DNA from: Synechococcales cyanobacterium PMM_0072
GTDB lineage: Bacteria; Cyanobacteriota; Cyanobacteriia; Cyanobacteriales; Chamaesiphonaceae
NCBI GenBank assembly: GCA_949127675.1
Contig: CASBPY010000019.1
Coordinates: forward strand, 1-37,688
DNA length: 37,688 nucleotides
Reading direction: 5' to 3'
A model generated the notes under the pieces. The model did no database searches and was not told the DNA's origin. It was given only the letters and a program-made list of their open reading frames with translations. The translations under genes were made by a program, and so were the position numbers. The stretch's first letter is position 1. Every line of letters begins with the position of its first letter. Below are positions 20,780-27,537 of this stretch, piece by piece.

Positions 20780-21478
20780 TTAAACAGCAAGATACTTATG
20801 AAATAAATCATCAGTCAGCTCGGCTGTTGCGCCATCTACTACCACGGCACCTTTCTCCATAATGAAGAACTTATCAGCGATCTGCCGCACAAAATCAACC
20901 TTGTGCTCGACGACGATCAGGGTAATCCCTTTCTCCCGATTAATCCGCTTTAAAGTTTCCTCGATTTCCTGCACGATCGACGGCTGAATTCCCTCAGTTG
21001 GCTCATCAAGGAGCATAATCTTGGGATCGCTCATCAATCCACGTGCGATGGCTAGTTGCTGTTGCTGTCCGCCACTGAGTAAACCACCTTGACGATTGAG
21101 ATGCTGCTTGAGCATTGGGAAAAACTCAAAGATTTCATGAGGGATCTTGCTAGATTTCTTCTTTCCAGCCGAAAGTCCCAGTTTGAGATTATCCAACACC
21201 GATAGATAAGGAATAATTTCTCTACCTTGGGGAATATACGCAATCCCAGCACGGGCACGCTTAAAGATCGGCAACCGCGTAATATTTTTAATGTCAAAGA
21301 TGATGTTACCTGACATCACCTTATTCAAGCCAATGATACTCCGCAACAGCGTAGTTTTACCTACCCCATTCCGACCGAGGATACAAGCAATTTCACCTTG
21401 GTTAACGGCCAGATTGGCACCAAACAAAACGGGTGTTTGTCCGTAAGAAACAGTTACATCATTTACTTCAAGCAGCAT
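20780..21478 (-). CDS. urtE: ABC transporter ATP-binding protein, UrtE type
   Basis: Walker A GRNGVGKTT, LSGGQQQQLAIARGL, Walker B IMLLDEPTEGIQPSIVQEI. Confidence 0.92.
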   Translation of the reverse strand: MLLEVNDVTVSYGQTPVLFGANLAVNQGEIACILGRNGVGKTTLLRSIIGLNKVMSGNIIFDIKNITRLPIFKRARAGIAYIPQGREIIPYLSVLDNLKLGLSAGKKKSSKIPHEIFEFFPMLKQHLNRQGGLLSGGQQQQLAIARGLMSDPKIMLLDEPTEGIQPSIVQEIEETLKRINREKGITLIVVEHKVDFVRQIADKFFIMEKGAVVVDGATAELTDDLFHKYLAV

Positions 21479-22232
21479 TGATTTGTTCGCGTCCTAAATA
21501 TACTTCAATTACCTTGGGATTTGATTGGACTTCCGCGACCGAGCCTTCGGTCAACTTTTCGCCTTGATGGAGGACGACAAGTCGTTGAGCAATTTGTTTA
21601 ACAAACTCCATGTCATGCTCGATTACTACCACAGAGTGACTGGTCGCAATCGTCTTAATGATTTCACCAGTTGCGTAGGTTTCATCGGCAGTCATCCCCG
21701 CAGTTGGTTCGTCCAGCAGTACTACTGCTGGATCTTGAGCGAGTACCATCCCGATCTCGACCCACTGTTTTTGTCCATGTGATAAAGAGGAAACTTTAGC
21801 ATAGCCTTGTTCCAACAGACCAATCCGATCGAGAACACTGATAATCTTGTCTTTTTTAGCAGCAGTAAGTTTAGCTCTAATGGACGAAAACACGCCATGA
21901 GTACCTTTTAGTGCCAGTAAAATGTTGTCGAATACTGACAGCTCATTATAAACATTGGGGTTTTGAAATTTGCGACCGATGCCCATACGGGCGATTTCGT
22001 GGGAGCTTTTATTGGTGATATCCTGGCCTTGATAATATACATGCCCTGACGCGACCGGAGATTTCCCAACGATCGCATCGAGTAATGTACTTTTACCAGC
22101 CCCATTGGGGCCAATGATGGTCACAATTTCATTTTTACCTACCTCTAAATTAACGCCCTTCAATGCTTTGAAACCAGAGAAAACTACCTTGAGATCTTTG
22201 ACTGACAAAACAGACCCTTGCGAATTCATCAT
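21468..22232 (-). CDS. urtD: ABC transporter ATP-binding protein, UrtD type
   Basis: Walker A GPNGAGKST, LSHGQKQWVEIGMVLAQDPAVVLLDEPTAGMT. Confidence 0.92.
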   Translation of the reverse strand: MMNSQGSVLSVKDLKVVFSGFKALKGVNLEVGKNEIVTIIGPNGAGKSTLLDAIVGKSPVASGHVYYQGQDITNKSSHEIARMGIGRKFQNPNVYNELSVFDNILLALKGTHGVFSSIRAKLTAAKKDKIISVLDRIGLLEQGYAKVSSLSHGQKQWVEIGMVLAQDPAVVLLDEPTAGMTADETYATGEIIKTIATSHSVVVIEHDMEFVKQIAQRLVVLHQGEKLTEGSVAEVQSNPKVIEVYLGREQINAA

Positions 22233-22242
22233 ATATTTAAGC

Positions 22243-23355
22243 TTAGGCTTTTTCTAGTTGATCAGAACTACTCGCAAGCAACTTCTTATTAGAACTACTC
22301 GTAAGCAATTTCTTTGGTAACAGGCTCATTAGTCCGTCTGGCAGAAATAACACCACTAACATGAGAATTATGCCAACAATTAACTGCCAATCTTGAGTAA
22401 TTCGATCGACCGAGTTTTGGAGCTGACCTAGTAAAATTGCGGCGATGATTGGCCCAAATAGCGTGCCGCGTCCGCCAACAGCAACCCAGATCACCACCTG
22501 AGTCCCAAAAGCTACCCCTAGATATACTGGTGAAATAAAGTTATTGAGCGGTACGAATAAACCACCGCAGATACCTGCGATTCCAGCGGAAAGCGTCCAG
22601 ATAAAAATCTTGAAACTAGCAACATCGTAACCTAAATAAGAAATACGTTGTTCGTTCTCTTTAATAGAACGAAGAATCAATCCAAAGTTGGATTTTGTCA
22701 GCCACCAACTACCTGCGAGTGTCAAAGCAGCAAAAGCCAGAATAATAAAATAGATCCCAATTGGCGGTACAACCATCCCAAACAGCATCAATTTTGATAC
22801 ATCGGTAATTCCATTGGTACCACCTGTATAAGCTTGCTGACTGACAAAGAAAGTCGTCAGTGCCGAGGCGATCGCTAGGGTAATTACAGTGATATATACA
22901 CCACTAACTTTAGAACGAAAAATAAACGATCCGATCGCATAGGCAAAACCAGCCGGAATAACTACCATCGCGATCACGGCAATCGGAAAAAATTGCAATG
23001 GAGCAATAAACCAAGGTAACTCCTTCAACCCATTCCACACCATAAAATCTGGAATATTACCACCATAATTATTGGCAGTAGCAGATAGGTTTAGCTTGAG
23101 ATAATATGCCATCGCATATCCCCCCAATGTAAAAAATACACCGTGAGCAAAGCTCAAAATACCTGTAAATCCCCACACTAAATCTAGTGATACACCTAAT
23201 ATTCCAAATAACAGCAATTTTGCCATCAAATTGGTCTGAAATGTGCCAGCTACAAAAGGGAAAATTATCAGTACTAACAAAACTGCTAAATTGATAATTT
23301 GCCATTTCTTGGGGACAAAGTTTGACTGTTGAATTTGACCTAATGCTTGTGCCAT
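22243..23355 (-). CDS. urtC: ABC transporter permease, UrtC type
   Basis: Multi-TM branched-chain-amino-acid/urea permease pattern; position between urtB and urtD. Confidence 0.92.
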   Translation of the reverse strand: MAQALGQIQQSNFVPKKWQIINLAVLLVLIIFPFVAGTFQTNLMAKLLLFGILGVSLDLVWGFTGILSFAHGVFFTLGGYAMAYYLKLNLSATANNYGGNIPDFMVWNGLKELPWFIAPLQFFPIAVIAMVVIPAGFAYAIGSFIFRSKVSGVYITVITLAIASALTTFFVSQQAYTGGTNGITDVSKLMLFGMVVPPIGIYFIILAFAALTLAGSWWLTKSNFGLILRSIKENEQRISYLGYDVASFKIFIWTLSAGIAGICGGLFVPLNNFISPVYLGVAFGTQVVIWVAVGGRGTLFGPIIAAILLGQLQNSVDRITQDWQLIVGIILMLVVLFLPDGLMSLLPKKLLTSSSNKKLLASSSDQLEKA

Positions 23356-23388
23356 TTTGAACGCTCCATTATGATTTAAAACTTGGTA

Positions 23389-24351
23389 TTAACCACGCTT
23401 TTGAACTGTAAATAGACCTTCTGGACGGTAGCGAATTAGTACGATTACTGCTGCTAAGACGATCACCCTAGCAGTAGGATCGTTGAGTAGATAGGCGATC
23501 GCGGCATTTGATTCACCAATCAATACTGCACCCGCCAACACGCCGACTAACTTGTCCACACCTCCGGCCACCACTGTCATCCAGGCATCGACTAGGTAAT
23601 CTTGTCCCATCGCTGGGGCGACACTCTTGAGCGAAGCGATGACTGTTCCAGCAATTCCAGCTAGTCCGCACCCGTAAGCAAATGTGAGCATATCTACCAG
23701 ACTGGTATTTATCCCCAAACACTTTGCCATTTCGCGATTTTGAGTCACAGCGCGGACTTCTCGACCCAAAGTTGTACCATAGAGTAAATACGCTGTAATT
23801 CCAAACAGTAGTAGTGCCATAAAGATGATAAACAAGCGGTAGTAAGAAATCTCGATCGCTTGTCCGCCAATTGTAAATGGTGTCCAATTACCACGAATAT
23901 AGGGCGGTGATTTGACATATTTGAGTTGAGCAGTAAATATTAGCTTCACTACACCTTGGAGAACGATACTTAGTCCCCAGGTAGCTAGTAGAGTTTCGAT
24001 CGCTCGTCCATATAGTCGCCGGACGATCGTCACTTCTACCAGTGCGCCCACTAAGGCTGTAAACAAAAAGGAAAACGGAATTGTCATCAACAAGTCCATT
24101 TTGAAATTGCTCTGCAATACAAAGGTTGTATATGCGCCGAGCATGATAAATTCACCATGGGCGAGATTGATAATCCGCATCACCCCAAATGTGATCGAGA
24201 GTCCCAAACCTGTCAATAACAGAATCCCGATAATCCCAACCCCATTCAAAAGCTGATTGGTGATTGCCACTGGATCGATCGCTTTTGGTGGCGGACTGAT
24301 TTCGGCTAAGTAAATTAACGAAGAGATGGCATTAAATGACAACACGTTCAT
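23389..24351 (-). CDS. urtB: ABC transporter permease, UrtB type
   Basis: GLGLSITFGVMRIINLAHGEFIMLGAYTTF; gene order. Confidence 0.92.
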   Translation of the reverse strand: MNVLSFNAISSLIYLAEISPPPKAIDPVAITNQLLNGVGIIGILLLTGLGLSITFGVMRIINLAHGEFIMLGAYTTFVLQSNFKMDLLMTIPFSFLFTALVGALVEVTIVRRLYGRAIETLLATWGLSIVLQGVVKLIFTAQLKYVKSPPYIRGNWTPFTIGGQAIEISYYRLFIIFMALLLFGITAYLLYGTTLGREVRAVTQNREMAKCLGINTSLVDMLTFAYGCGLAGIAGTVIASLKSVAPAMGQDYLVDAWMTVVAGGVDKLVGVLAGAVLIGESNAAIAYLLNDPTARVIVLAAVIVLIRYRPEGLFTVQKRG

Positions 24352-24438: not shown

Positions 24439-25830
24439 TTAGGGCTTGTCTAGGAAGGCAACTGGAATGGGTTTCTTGGTCTCGACAATCGGGTTGCCGC
24501 GAAGGTCTGGGGTCTTGTGAACGCAGAGCCGACCTTTATACAACGCTTGACTCCACGGAATCGGTTTCACCGCAGCCTTGGTCGCAAACACAATTTCTGC
24601 TTGCCCATCCGCCTTCCACTTACCAATCCGGGAATAGAGGTAGGTATGATAGTTATCGGGGTCGGATTTTACAGTTCCTTGAGGAGCTTTAAACTCTTGT
24701 CCCCTAGTTGCTTCGCGCAGATTAGCGGTAGTAAATTCTTTCTTTTCCTTAGCGCATTTTTCCATTGCTTGTGCCATGAAAAAGGTCTGGATATAAGCGG
24801 CTTCCATCACCCCGTTGGTAACGCGCTCTTTGCCAAACTTCGCCTGGAATTGCTCGATGAATGCCTTATTTTCAGGCGTATCGACTGATTGGAAGTAGTT
24901 GAAACTACTAAAGTGTCCTTCAGCGAATTCTGGCCCCATCGCCTGAATTTCTTCTTCTGTGGTGGGAAATGCCATAATCGGAATCTGTTTGGAAGTGATT
25001 CCAGCATCTTTAAGCTGCTTGTAAAAGGCGGGAATACTATCACCGACTAGATTGCTGAGGATAAAGTTAGGCTTGGCTTGCTTGATTTTATTAATAATCG
25101 TGATAAATTCGGTCGTACCGAGAGCCGCATATTCGTCCCCCACAACTGTACCGCCACCTGCAACTAACTCTGCTTTGGCAATCCGATTACTTTCTTTGGG
25201 ATAGATGTAGTCAGAACCAATAAAGAAGCCTTTTTTACCAAAGTTTTTGATACAGTAAGGAATCGAATCGGTAATTTGTTGGTTCGGTGCAGCCCCTGTG
25301 TAGAAAACGTTCGAGCTACATTCATTCCCTTCATAGTAGACAGGGTAGTAGAGTAGTCTGTCTTTCTCTTCAAATACTGGCAGAACTGATTTGCGGCTGG
25401 CTGAAGTGTAACAACCTAGTACGCAAACTACTTTATCTTCATCAATTAGCCGCTTGGACATTTGGTTGTACAAATCCCAGTTAGAATCTGGGTTGACAAC
25501 GACTTTTTCCAGCAGTTGCCCATTGATGCCTTTCTTCCCAGCCCAAGGGCCTGTTCCTTCATTGATTTGATCGATCGCTAGGAATGTTGCATCTTGTAAT
25601 GACTTTTCAACAATCGCGATCGATCCTGTAGTTGAATACATCACTCCTACCTTGATCCCTTTTGCTCCATCTGCCGCTGGAGCAGCATTTGGGGTAGCAG
25701 CAGTCGGACTGGCACCTGGGCTTGCTGTTGGAGTAGATGTTGTATTACTACAAGCTTTGAGCAGTAATGTTCCTGCAACTCCAGCACCACCCAAAATAAT
25801 GAATCTCCGTCGCCCAAACTGATTTGCCAT
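24439..25830 (-). CDS. urtA: urea/short-chain amide ABC transporter substrate-binding protein, UrtA type
   Basis: Tat-like GRRRFIILGG leader with lipobox-like LLLKAC; VGVMYSTTGSIAIVEKSLQDATFLAIDQIN. Confidence 0.93.
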   Translation of the reverse strand: MANQFGRRRFIILGGAGVAGTLLLKACSNTTSTPTASPGASPTAATPNAAPAADGAKGIKVGVMYSTTGSIAIVEKSLQDATFLAIDQINEGTGPWAGKKGINGQLLEKVVVNPDSNWDLYNQMSKRLIDEDKVVCVLGCYTSASRKSVLPVFEEKDRLLYYPVYYEGNECSSNVFYTGAAPNQQITDSIPYCIKNFGKKGFFIGSDYIYPKESNRIAKAELVAGGGTVVGDEYAALGTTEFITIINKIKQAKPNFILSNLVGDSIPAFYKQLKDAGITSKQIPIMAFPTTEEEIQAMGPEFAEGHFSSFNYFQSVDTPENKAFIEQFQAKFGKERVTNGVMEAAYIQTFFMAQAMEKCAKEKKEFTTANLREATRGQEFKAPQGTVKSDPDNYHTYLYSRIGKWKADGQAEIVFATKAAVKPIPWSQALYKGRLCVHKTPDLRGNPIVETKKPIPVAFLDKP

Positions 25831-25871
25831 ACGGTTTTATTTTATCCTTCATAGACAATTATCCAGACAAA

Positions 25872-25913
25872 ATCCTATTGTTAATATCTCAATAATTGTG
25901 TATCTTACAATAC
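25872..25913 (-). promoter_or_regulatory. canonical NtcA-activated promoter upstream of urtA
   Basis: Minus strand GTA-TTGTAAGA-TAC (25900-25913), 22-nt spacer, TAGGAT (25872-25877). Confidence 0.8.
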
Positions 25914-26002
25914 AAAATTTTCAAATTCAATCGAAATTGAGATTAATAACTGATTTGTCACATAGTTTTATTTTATCTTTTACACACAATTATCTAGATG
26001 AA

Positions 26003-26044
26003 ATCCTAATGCTAGTATCTCAGTAGCTGTGTATTCTACAATGC
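26003..26044 (-). promoter_or_regulatory. second NtcA-like promoter in the duplicate copy
   Basis: Minus strand GCA-TTGTAGAA-TAC (26031-26044), 22-nt spacer, TAGGAT (26003-26008); one consensus mismatch. Confidence 0.6.
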
Positions 26045-26062
26045 CAAATCCCCAAATTCGAT

Positions 26063-26332
26063 CTAGTGTCCGACCATCCACGGACGACTGCCGGAATGAT
26101 ACTGAACTCTGGGAGTTTTGGGTTCCAGATCTCGCGTTATTAACTGCGGTTCCGAACTAACTTTTTTGATACGTCCGGTCGATAATGTCATCGGCGGTGA
26201 AAAGATCCGTTTACCACGTTCATGGCAATCAGGACAATTGGCCGGATCGCTAGACTCAGACATCGATCTCCACATGTCAAAAACACCACATCCATCGCAT
26301 CGAAATTCATAAAGAGGCATAGATTGACTCAC
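26063..26332 (-). CDS. FmdB-family zinc ribbon protein
   Basis: MPLYEFRCDGCGVFDMWRSMSESSDPANCPDCHERGKRIFS; overlaps the fmdA stop. Confidence 0.88.
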   Translation of the reverse strand: MSQSMPLYEFRCDGCGVFDMWRSMSESSDPANCPDCHERGKRIFSPPMTLSTGRIKKVSSEPQLITRDLEPKTPRVQYHSGSRPWMVGH

Positions 26333-27537
26333 ACTGGCAGAATATTTTTATCGAAAATCGCTGTCGGAATTGCCAGCGTACAACAGGCATTTGGAATATC
26401 GACAATCCCACTAACTCGCCCTTCAATCGGCGCACAACTCAACAATAAGTAAGCCTGTTCTCCGGTAAATCCAAACTTTTTCAGATAGGCAATCGCATTT
26501 AAACATGCTTGACGATAAGCAATGTGGACATCCATAAAATATTGCTTACCAGTAAATTCATCCACAGAGATCCCTTCAAATACCAGGAATTCTGAGTAGT
26601 TTGGCTCGACTGGACCGGGCTTGAAGATCGGATTGACCATTGCGTATTTCTCAACGCCGCCTTTGATAATGTCCACATGGAGATCGATAAATCCCGACAT
26701 TTCGATCGCGCCACAGAAGGAAATCTCGCCATCGCCTTGGGAGAAATGGATATCGCCCATTGAGAGTTTTCCGCCTTCCACATAGACAGGGAAGTAGATC
26801 CGGGTTCCCCTAGATAGATTCTTGATGTCGCAGTTTCCACCATGTTCGCGAGGTGGAATAGTCCGAGCAGCTTCAGCAGCGACCCGTTCGTATTCAGATT
26901 GGGGTAACGTCCCCAAGACCGCATTCAATGGATTGGGCAGTGCTGCCAAGACGGGCACTCCATCCATATTGATGCCAGCTCCGTAAGTACGAAGATCGGG
27001 CTGGGTAGTCATTAGTTCAGCTTCGCGCTTGTTCCACTTGGCGAGCAACTCATGGGATGGGGCACAACCAATTAAGCCAGGATGAGTAATCCCCGCAAAT
27101 TTGACCCCAGGAATATGTCGAGAACTGGTGTAGATCCCCTGCAAATCCCAAATTGCTTTAGCTGCCGTCGGATAATGGTCTGTCAAAAAACCACCACCAT
27201 TCTTTTTATCGAAAATACCTGTGAAGCCCCATTCATCGCCTTGGAGGGCACCGATATCGACGATATCGACGACCAGAATGTCACCTGGTTCGGCACCATT
27301 GACCCAAATCGGACCGCTCAAGACATGGACGATCGATAGATCCACATCGCGGATATCATCAGCACTGTCATTGTTTTTGATCTGCCCATCCGTCCAATCT
27401 TTACATTCGATCCTAAATACATCACCAGGATTGACTGAAGCAATCGCGGGGATATCTGGATGCCAGCGATTGTGACCGGGTAACTCTTGTTCGCTCATCG
27501 GCTTGGTCAGATCGACTTTAAAAAGTGTCTTCGGCAT
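26329..27537 (-). CDS. fmdA: formamidase (acetamidase/formamidase family)
   Basis: MPKTLFKVDLTKPMSEQELPGHNRWHPDIPAIASVNPGDVFRIECKDWTDGQI...FPVYVEGGKLSMGDIHFSQGDGEISFCGAIEMSG. Confidence 0.94.
   Translation of the reverse strand: MPKTLFKVDLTKPMSEQELPGHNRWHPDIPAIASVNPGDVFRIECKDWTDGQIKNNDSADDIRDVDLSIVHVLSGPIWVNGAEPGDILVVDIVDIGALQGDEWGFTGIFDKKNGGGFLTDHYPTAAKAIWDLQGIYTSSRHIPGVKFAGITHPGLIGCAPSHELLAKWNKREAELMTTQPDLRTYGAGINMDGVPVLAALPNPLNAVLGTLPQSEYERVAAEAARTIPPREHGGNCDIKNLSRGTRIYFPVYVEGGKLSMGDIHFSQGDGEISFCGAIEMSGFIDLHVDIIKGGVEKYAMVNPIFKPGPVEPNYSEFLVFEGISVDEFTGKQYFMDVHIAYRQACLNAIAYLKKFGFTGEQAYLLLSCAPIEGRVSGIVDIPNACCTLAIPTAIFDKNILPV

Follow-up and report, generated by a model that had tools for sequence, protein, structure and literature searches.

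NtcA class II promoters follow a published rule, a GTAN8TAC box being followed after 22 nt by a TAN3T box, and urtA is named among the genes with this arrangement (PMC3898017). Within NtcA sites conservation is highest in GTN10AC, as seen in NtcA ChIP data (PMC3898017). In Methylophilus methylotrophus the genes fmdCABDEF serve the nitrogen-controlled uptake of short-chain amides and urea, as far as the system is described where PMC10781810 cites it, and in Bradyrhizobium an urt-like cluster lies beside an acetamidase/formamidase gene, its authors having inferred an amide other than urea (PMC3098086). Among the titles listed in a literature search for duplicated or tandem NtcA promoters none was relevant. 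Here we have analysed a 37,688-nt stretch of DNA (the window) from the Chamaesiphon cyanobacterium PMM_0072, whose draft genome is fragmented (303 contigs, 83% complete); on its minus strand pyrG, fmdA, fmdB, a tandem repeat and urtABCDE follow each other in this order (Table 1).

Table 1. Features of the fmd-urt region (positions in the window)
Feature	Position	Strand	Basis or remark
urtB, urtC, urtD, urtE	20780..24351	-	
urtA type 2, chimeric; substrate-binding protein of urea/amide ABC transporter	24439..25830	-	
urtA tract nearly identical to CAN_BIN19	24638..25041	-	12/404 differences vs 111/843 outside
Native-type lipoprotein signal peptide MANQFGRRRFIILGGAGVAGTLLLKAC fused to type-2 mature part	25750..25830	-	
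Proximal repeat copy: promoter, leader, first 14 nt of urtA	25817..25932	-	pairwise alignment
Proximal -10 box TAGGAT	25872..25877	-	22 nt after box; start point predicted near 25865
Proximal NtcA box (predicted) GTATTGTAAGATAC	25900..25913	-	motif; kept across genus
Putative relict GTG frame, 18 codons (VTNQLLISISIEFENFVL*)	25905..25961	-	ends inside proximal NtcA box
Distal repeat copy: diverged promoter, leader, putative relict gene start GTG ACA AAT CAG TT	25948..26063	-	pairwise alignment
Distal -10 box TAGGAT	26003..26008	-	start point, if any, predicted near 25996
Distal NtcA-like box GCATTGTAGAATAC, core T lost	26031..26044	-	motif and score
fmdB, zinc-ribbon protein	26063..26332	-	CAN_BIN19 similarity ends 8 nt past stop, at 26055
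fmdA, formamidase (FmdA_AmdA family)	26329..27537	-	

The repeat between fmdB and urtA is direct, with 116 nt per copy, 78% identity, an offset of 131 nt and a 15-nt spacer. The copies match at 91 of 116 positions, whereas the best other place in the window reaches 54 at most, thus the two diverged leader copies that a preliminary description had placed here, about 131 bp apart, stand well clear of background alignment. The same description let the distal copy overlap the 3' end of fmdB; this is true of the last base of the stop codon and does not extend to the coding sequence. Further copies of the repeat were not found in the genome, nor was a terminator between the two copies or any Rfam element in 25300-26600. 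The repeat also comprises the beginning of the gene, in agreement with the earlier proposal of a promoter plus gene-start duplication: in the ungapped alignment the proximal ATG GCA AAT CAG TT pairs with the distal GTG ACA AAT CAG TT. The distal GTG is a possible start in the same register and opens the 18-codon frame of Table 1, apparently what is left of a second urtA start; AAGGA precedes the proximal start and is missing before the distal short frame. The distal start had previously been read as ATGTGACAAATCAGTT, a start followed by a stop, and this ATG-TGA reading was rejected in favour of the in-frame GTG ACA.

The promoter elements of the two copies are GTATTGTAAGATAC-N22-TAGGAT at 25913-25872 (proximal) and GCATTGTAGAATAC-N22-TAGGAT at 26044-26003 (distal), both on the minus strand. 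The proximal copy therefore has the GTA-N8-TAC box of a class II promoter exactly 22 nt from a -10 box of the TAN3T form, as originally noticed; the distal copy keeps the spacing and the -10 box but reads GCA-N8-TAC, which was likewise noticed correctly. GTAN8TAC occurs seven times in the window and only the proximal one is followed 20-24 nt later by TAN3T; the chance of such a layout, with a spacing of 22-23, is P = 0.003 as estimated from first-order Markov sequences modelled on the 233-nt gap. The genome encodes ntcA (368 bits; cut-off 244.95). As an NtcA box the proximal site scores 32.6 bits and the distal one 22.3, the other promoters lying at 27.0-32.6. On the grounds of its conservation in the genus, the presence of ntcA in the genome and the published class II rule, it is very probable that the proximal copy works as an NtcA promoter. 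In the distal copy the change from GT to GC falls in the GTN10AC core, which makes a functional NtcA site there unlikely; most likely this copy is a remnant with weak activity or none. Of the duplicated NtcA-type promoter first described, the duplication and the proximal layout are thus retained.

Comparison across related strains, suggested earlier as a check, was made with eight other Chamaesiphon genomes, including C. polymorphus CCALA 037, GL140_3 and CAN_BIN19. The proximal element proved to be conserved in the genus: seven urtA promoters of six other genomes have GTA-N8-TAC at -83/-84 and, 22-23 nt further on, a -10 box, and in an eighth promoter (G006) the box is kept further upstream, ahead of a different leader. 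None of these eight promoters is duplicated (0/8), but being mutually related they do not constitute independent tests. The urtA leader of CAN_BIN19 has no such NtcA box and is unrelated to that of the window. Genus-invariant columns are changed at 5/42 positions in the distal and at 2/42 in the proximal copy, a difference that could be due to chance. The distal copy may still be under some selection, since its overall decay is not much above that of the proximal one; the -10 box and the 22-nt spacing are kept.

Some further features of these leaders were recognized. A block like CAGCCATTAGTCTAAATCTTTGTAAA, upstream of the NtcA box, is conserved in 7/8 of the other Chamaesiphon urtA promoters and absent from the distal copy; the proximal copy may have kept a trace of it. 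Four type-1 urtA promoters (L112-L115 of G002, G003, G004 and G007) have the -10 box at the centre of a perfect inverted repeat, TGAGATA...TATCTCA; in four genomes this exact pattern is present a single time, at urtA, and its arms co-vary in G007 and G002b. The inverted repeat is decayed in the type-2 promoters, that of the window included, and is possibly the operator for a second regulator. In a type-1 urtA of another family (L041, G058) GTAN8TAC boxes stand at -123 and -85 upstream, only the second being followed by a -10 box after 22 nt.

Two types of urtA, about 50% identical to each other, exist in Chamaesiphon, and type 1 follows pyrG, which is the native order, in G003, G004 and G005. 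The urtA gene of the window combines both: its first 90 nt are 87-89% identical to type 1, and its mature part is 87-90% identical to type 2 and about 55% to type 1. The type-1 promoter and signal peptide are likewise joined to a type-2 mature protein in G001 and in C. polymorphus, while the type-2 proteins of CAN_BIN19, GL140_3 and Pseudanabaena begin with MK...TRRRFI(Q/K)Y, a contrast from which we infer that the native gene contributed promoter and signal peptide and a different gene the body. The name urtA, as first used for this gene, is accordingly incomplete: rather than the usual cyanobacterial urtA it is a type linked to formamidase, and its promoter and signal peptide are borrowed. 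As in amide/urea transporters of the Fmd kind, fmdA-fmdB adjoin the urt genes, both in the window and in Pseudanabaena, and among the Chamaesiphon genomes fmdA was confined to the five that have type-2 urtA. UrtA of the window scores below the curated cut-off of urea-binding UrtA (NCBIfam TIGR03407; 415.3 vs 492.75 bits), and UrtB, UrtC and UrtD score above theirs (TIGR03409, 326.8/250.3; TIGR03408, 317.1/296.2; TIGR03411, 325.3/304.1 bits). Judged by its gene linkage, the type-2 transporter may take up an amide; urea is still a possible substrate since urease is present in the genome. The fmdA and fmdB genes of the window (26063-27537) and of CAN_BIN19 are closest to those of Pseudanabaena (fmdA up to 97%, fmdB about 79%), the fmdB genes of G001, G002 and G006 being only 45-57% identical; transfer of an fmd cassette between cyanobacteria is probable.

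CAN_BIN19, the nearest relative, has the same pyrG-fmdA-fmdB-urtA order, and both flanks of the urt operon in the window match this genome at 90-97%. Synonymous differences (pS) amount to 0.08-0.13 in pyrG, fmdA and fmdB (0.12-0.13 in the latter two), 0.44 in urtA, and 0.16-0.20 in urtE and the MOSC gene. Within urtA the tract of near identity was not equalled in any of 60 permutations (0/60), which marks the gene as a mosaic. As the similarity collapses just past the fmdB stop, the promoter pair sits at a recombination junction, and the duplication account given earlier, sound in itself, has to be completed by this breakpoint. The pattern is most simply read as an exchange, in one of the two lineages, of about 1 kb that comprised both promoter copies and the 5' half of urtA. 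The CAN_BIN19 arrangement, where the leader is cassette-like, is probably the older state.

The position of the pair exactly at the recombination edge could mean that recombination placed two promoters of separate origin side by side, neither being a copy of the other. The divergence between the copies (25/116 positions; 22 transitions and 3 transversions) is also above that of fmdA and fmdB from CAN_BIN19 at synonymous sites (P = 0.007 at p = 0.13). It fits, however, the wider synonymous divergence from that genome (P = 0.37 at p = 0.2), thus an old duplication in place is sufficient; moreover the copies have GATAAAATAAAAC in common, the 3 transversions between them compare with 6-13 to any other promoter, and they group together in the tree with moderate support. 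We consider separate origins improbable and, from the transversions and the tree, take the copies to be true duplicates rather than two unrelated imports. A recent tandem duplication was rejected, since 25/116 is about equal to or above the synonymous divergence from CAN_BIN19. It is very improbable that two strain alleles of one promoter were joined by assembly or binning: the genome is a draft of many contigs, the pair is absent from CAN_BIN19 and urtA is mosaic, but the longest exact match between the copies (13 nt) is too short for the usual assembly overlaps and the copies are separated by a spacer of their own. The matching flanks of the urt operon also argue for a contig from one genome with a diverged insert, and a chimeric contig of two distant genomes is disfavoured for the same reason.

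Both copies might work, the distal one providing a second start, perhaps NtcA-independent or weakly NtcA-dependent, in a combination of basal and induced promoters with a leader longer by 131 nt and containing the short upstream frame. In favour of this, the distal copy was not deleted and, despite its age, retains TAGGAT, the spacing, TAC and 37/42 genus-invariant columns. We still regard it as unlikely: the substitution lies where NtcA sites are most strongly conserved (PMC3898017), a consensus scan found no sigma-70-type promoter upstream of the distal start, and the short frame is without the AAGGA of the proximal one. Distinctly improbable, finally, is a double promoter in which the weakened upstream NtcA site, the strong one by the gene and the short frame together set a graded response to nitrogen; if true, it would control an amide transporter that has taken its promoter and signal peptide from the native urea transporter.

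We therefore favour, with a probability of roughly 0.7, a working proximal NtcA promoter, a decayed older distal duplicate and a junction with a formamidase-linked transporter gene, an account built at the sequence level on the repeat, the conservation, the chimera and the breakpoint. According to the layout, NtcA would bind its proximal box under nitrogen shortage and help RNA polymerase to start at the predicted point, so that urtABCDE is transcribed. The distal copy would be an older duplicate of promoter and gene start which has lost a core base and fires weakly or not at all. At the junction the native urtA promoter and signal peptide would have been joined to the type-2 transporter gene, and the joined gene stands downstream of fmdAB, presumably having replaced the native urt operon after pyrG. 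If so, the locus clearly exemplifies in nature how a promoter and signal peptide are captured, and the junction can still be read: a transporter body of a different type, linked to formamidase, came under native nitrogen control. It also offers a natural NtcA promoter pair in one place, one core intact and one broken. It should be emphasized that 'urtA' may here name an amide transporter.

Compared with the class II promoters of urtA, nirA, glnA and ntcB of Anabaena (PMC3898017), the locus has the same GTAN8TAC, 22 nt and TAN3T, a box before an urt operon and ntcA in its genome; it differs in the diverged GCA copy 131 nt upstream and in a gene which is not the usual urtA. With the Methylophilus fmd genes, as far as they are described in the source cited above, it shares a formamidase and an FmdB-type zinc-ribbon gene beside a binding-protein-dependent ABC transporter, nitrogen control being predicted here; unlike them it has an urt-like operon of five genes, cyanobacterial in type, and an FmdA of the FmdA_AmdA family. 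The Bradyrhizobium cluster (PMC3098086) similarly has five urt-like genes adjoining PF03069, but belongs to another phylum and has no NtcA. The Pseudanabaena cassette fmdA-fmdB-urtABCDE-MOSC (L052-L058, L065) has the same order as the window and a UrtA 85-87% identical, and differs in having its own signal peptide (MKK...TRRRFIQY) and leader, with no NtcA box in the fmdB-urtA gap.
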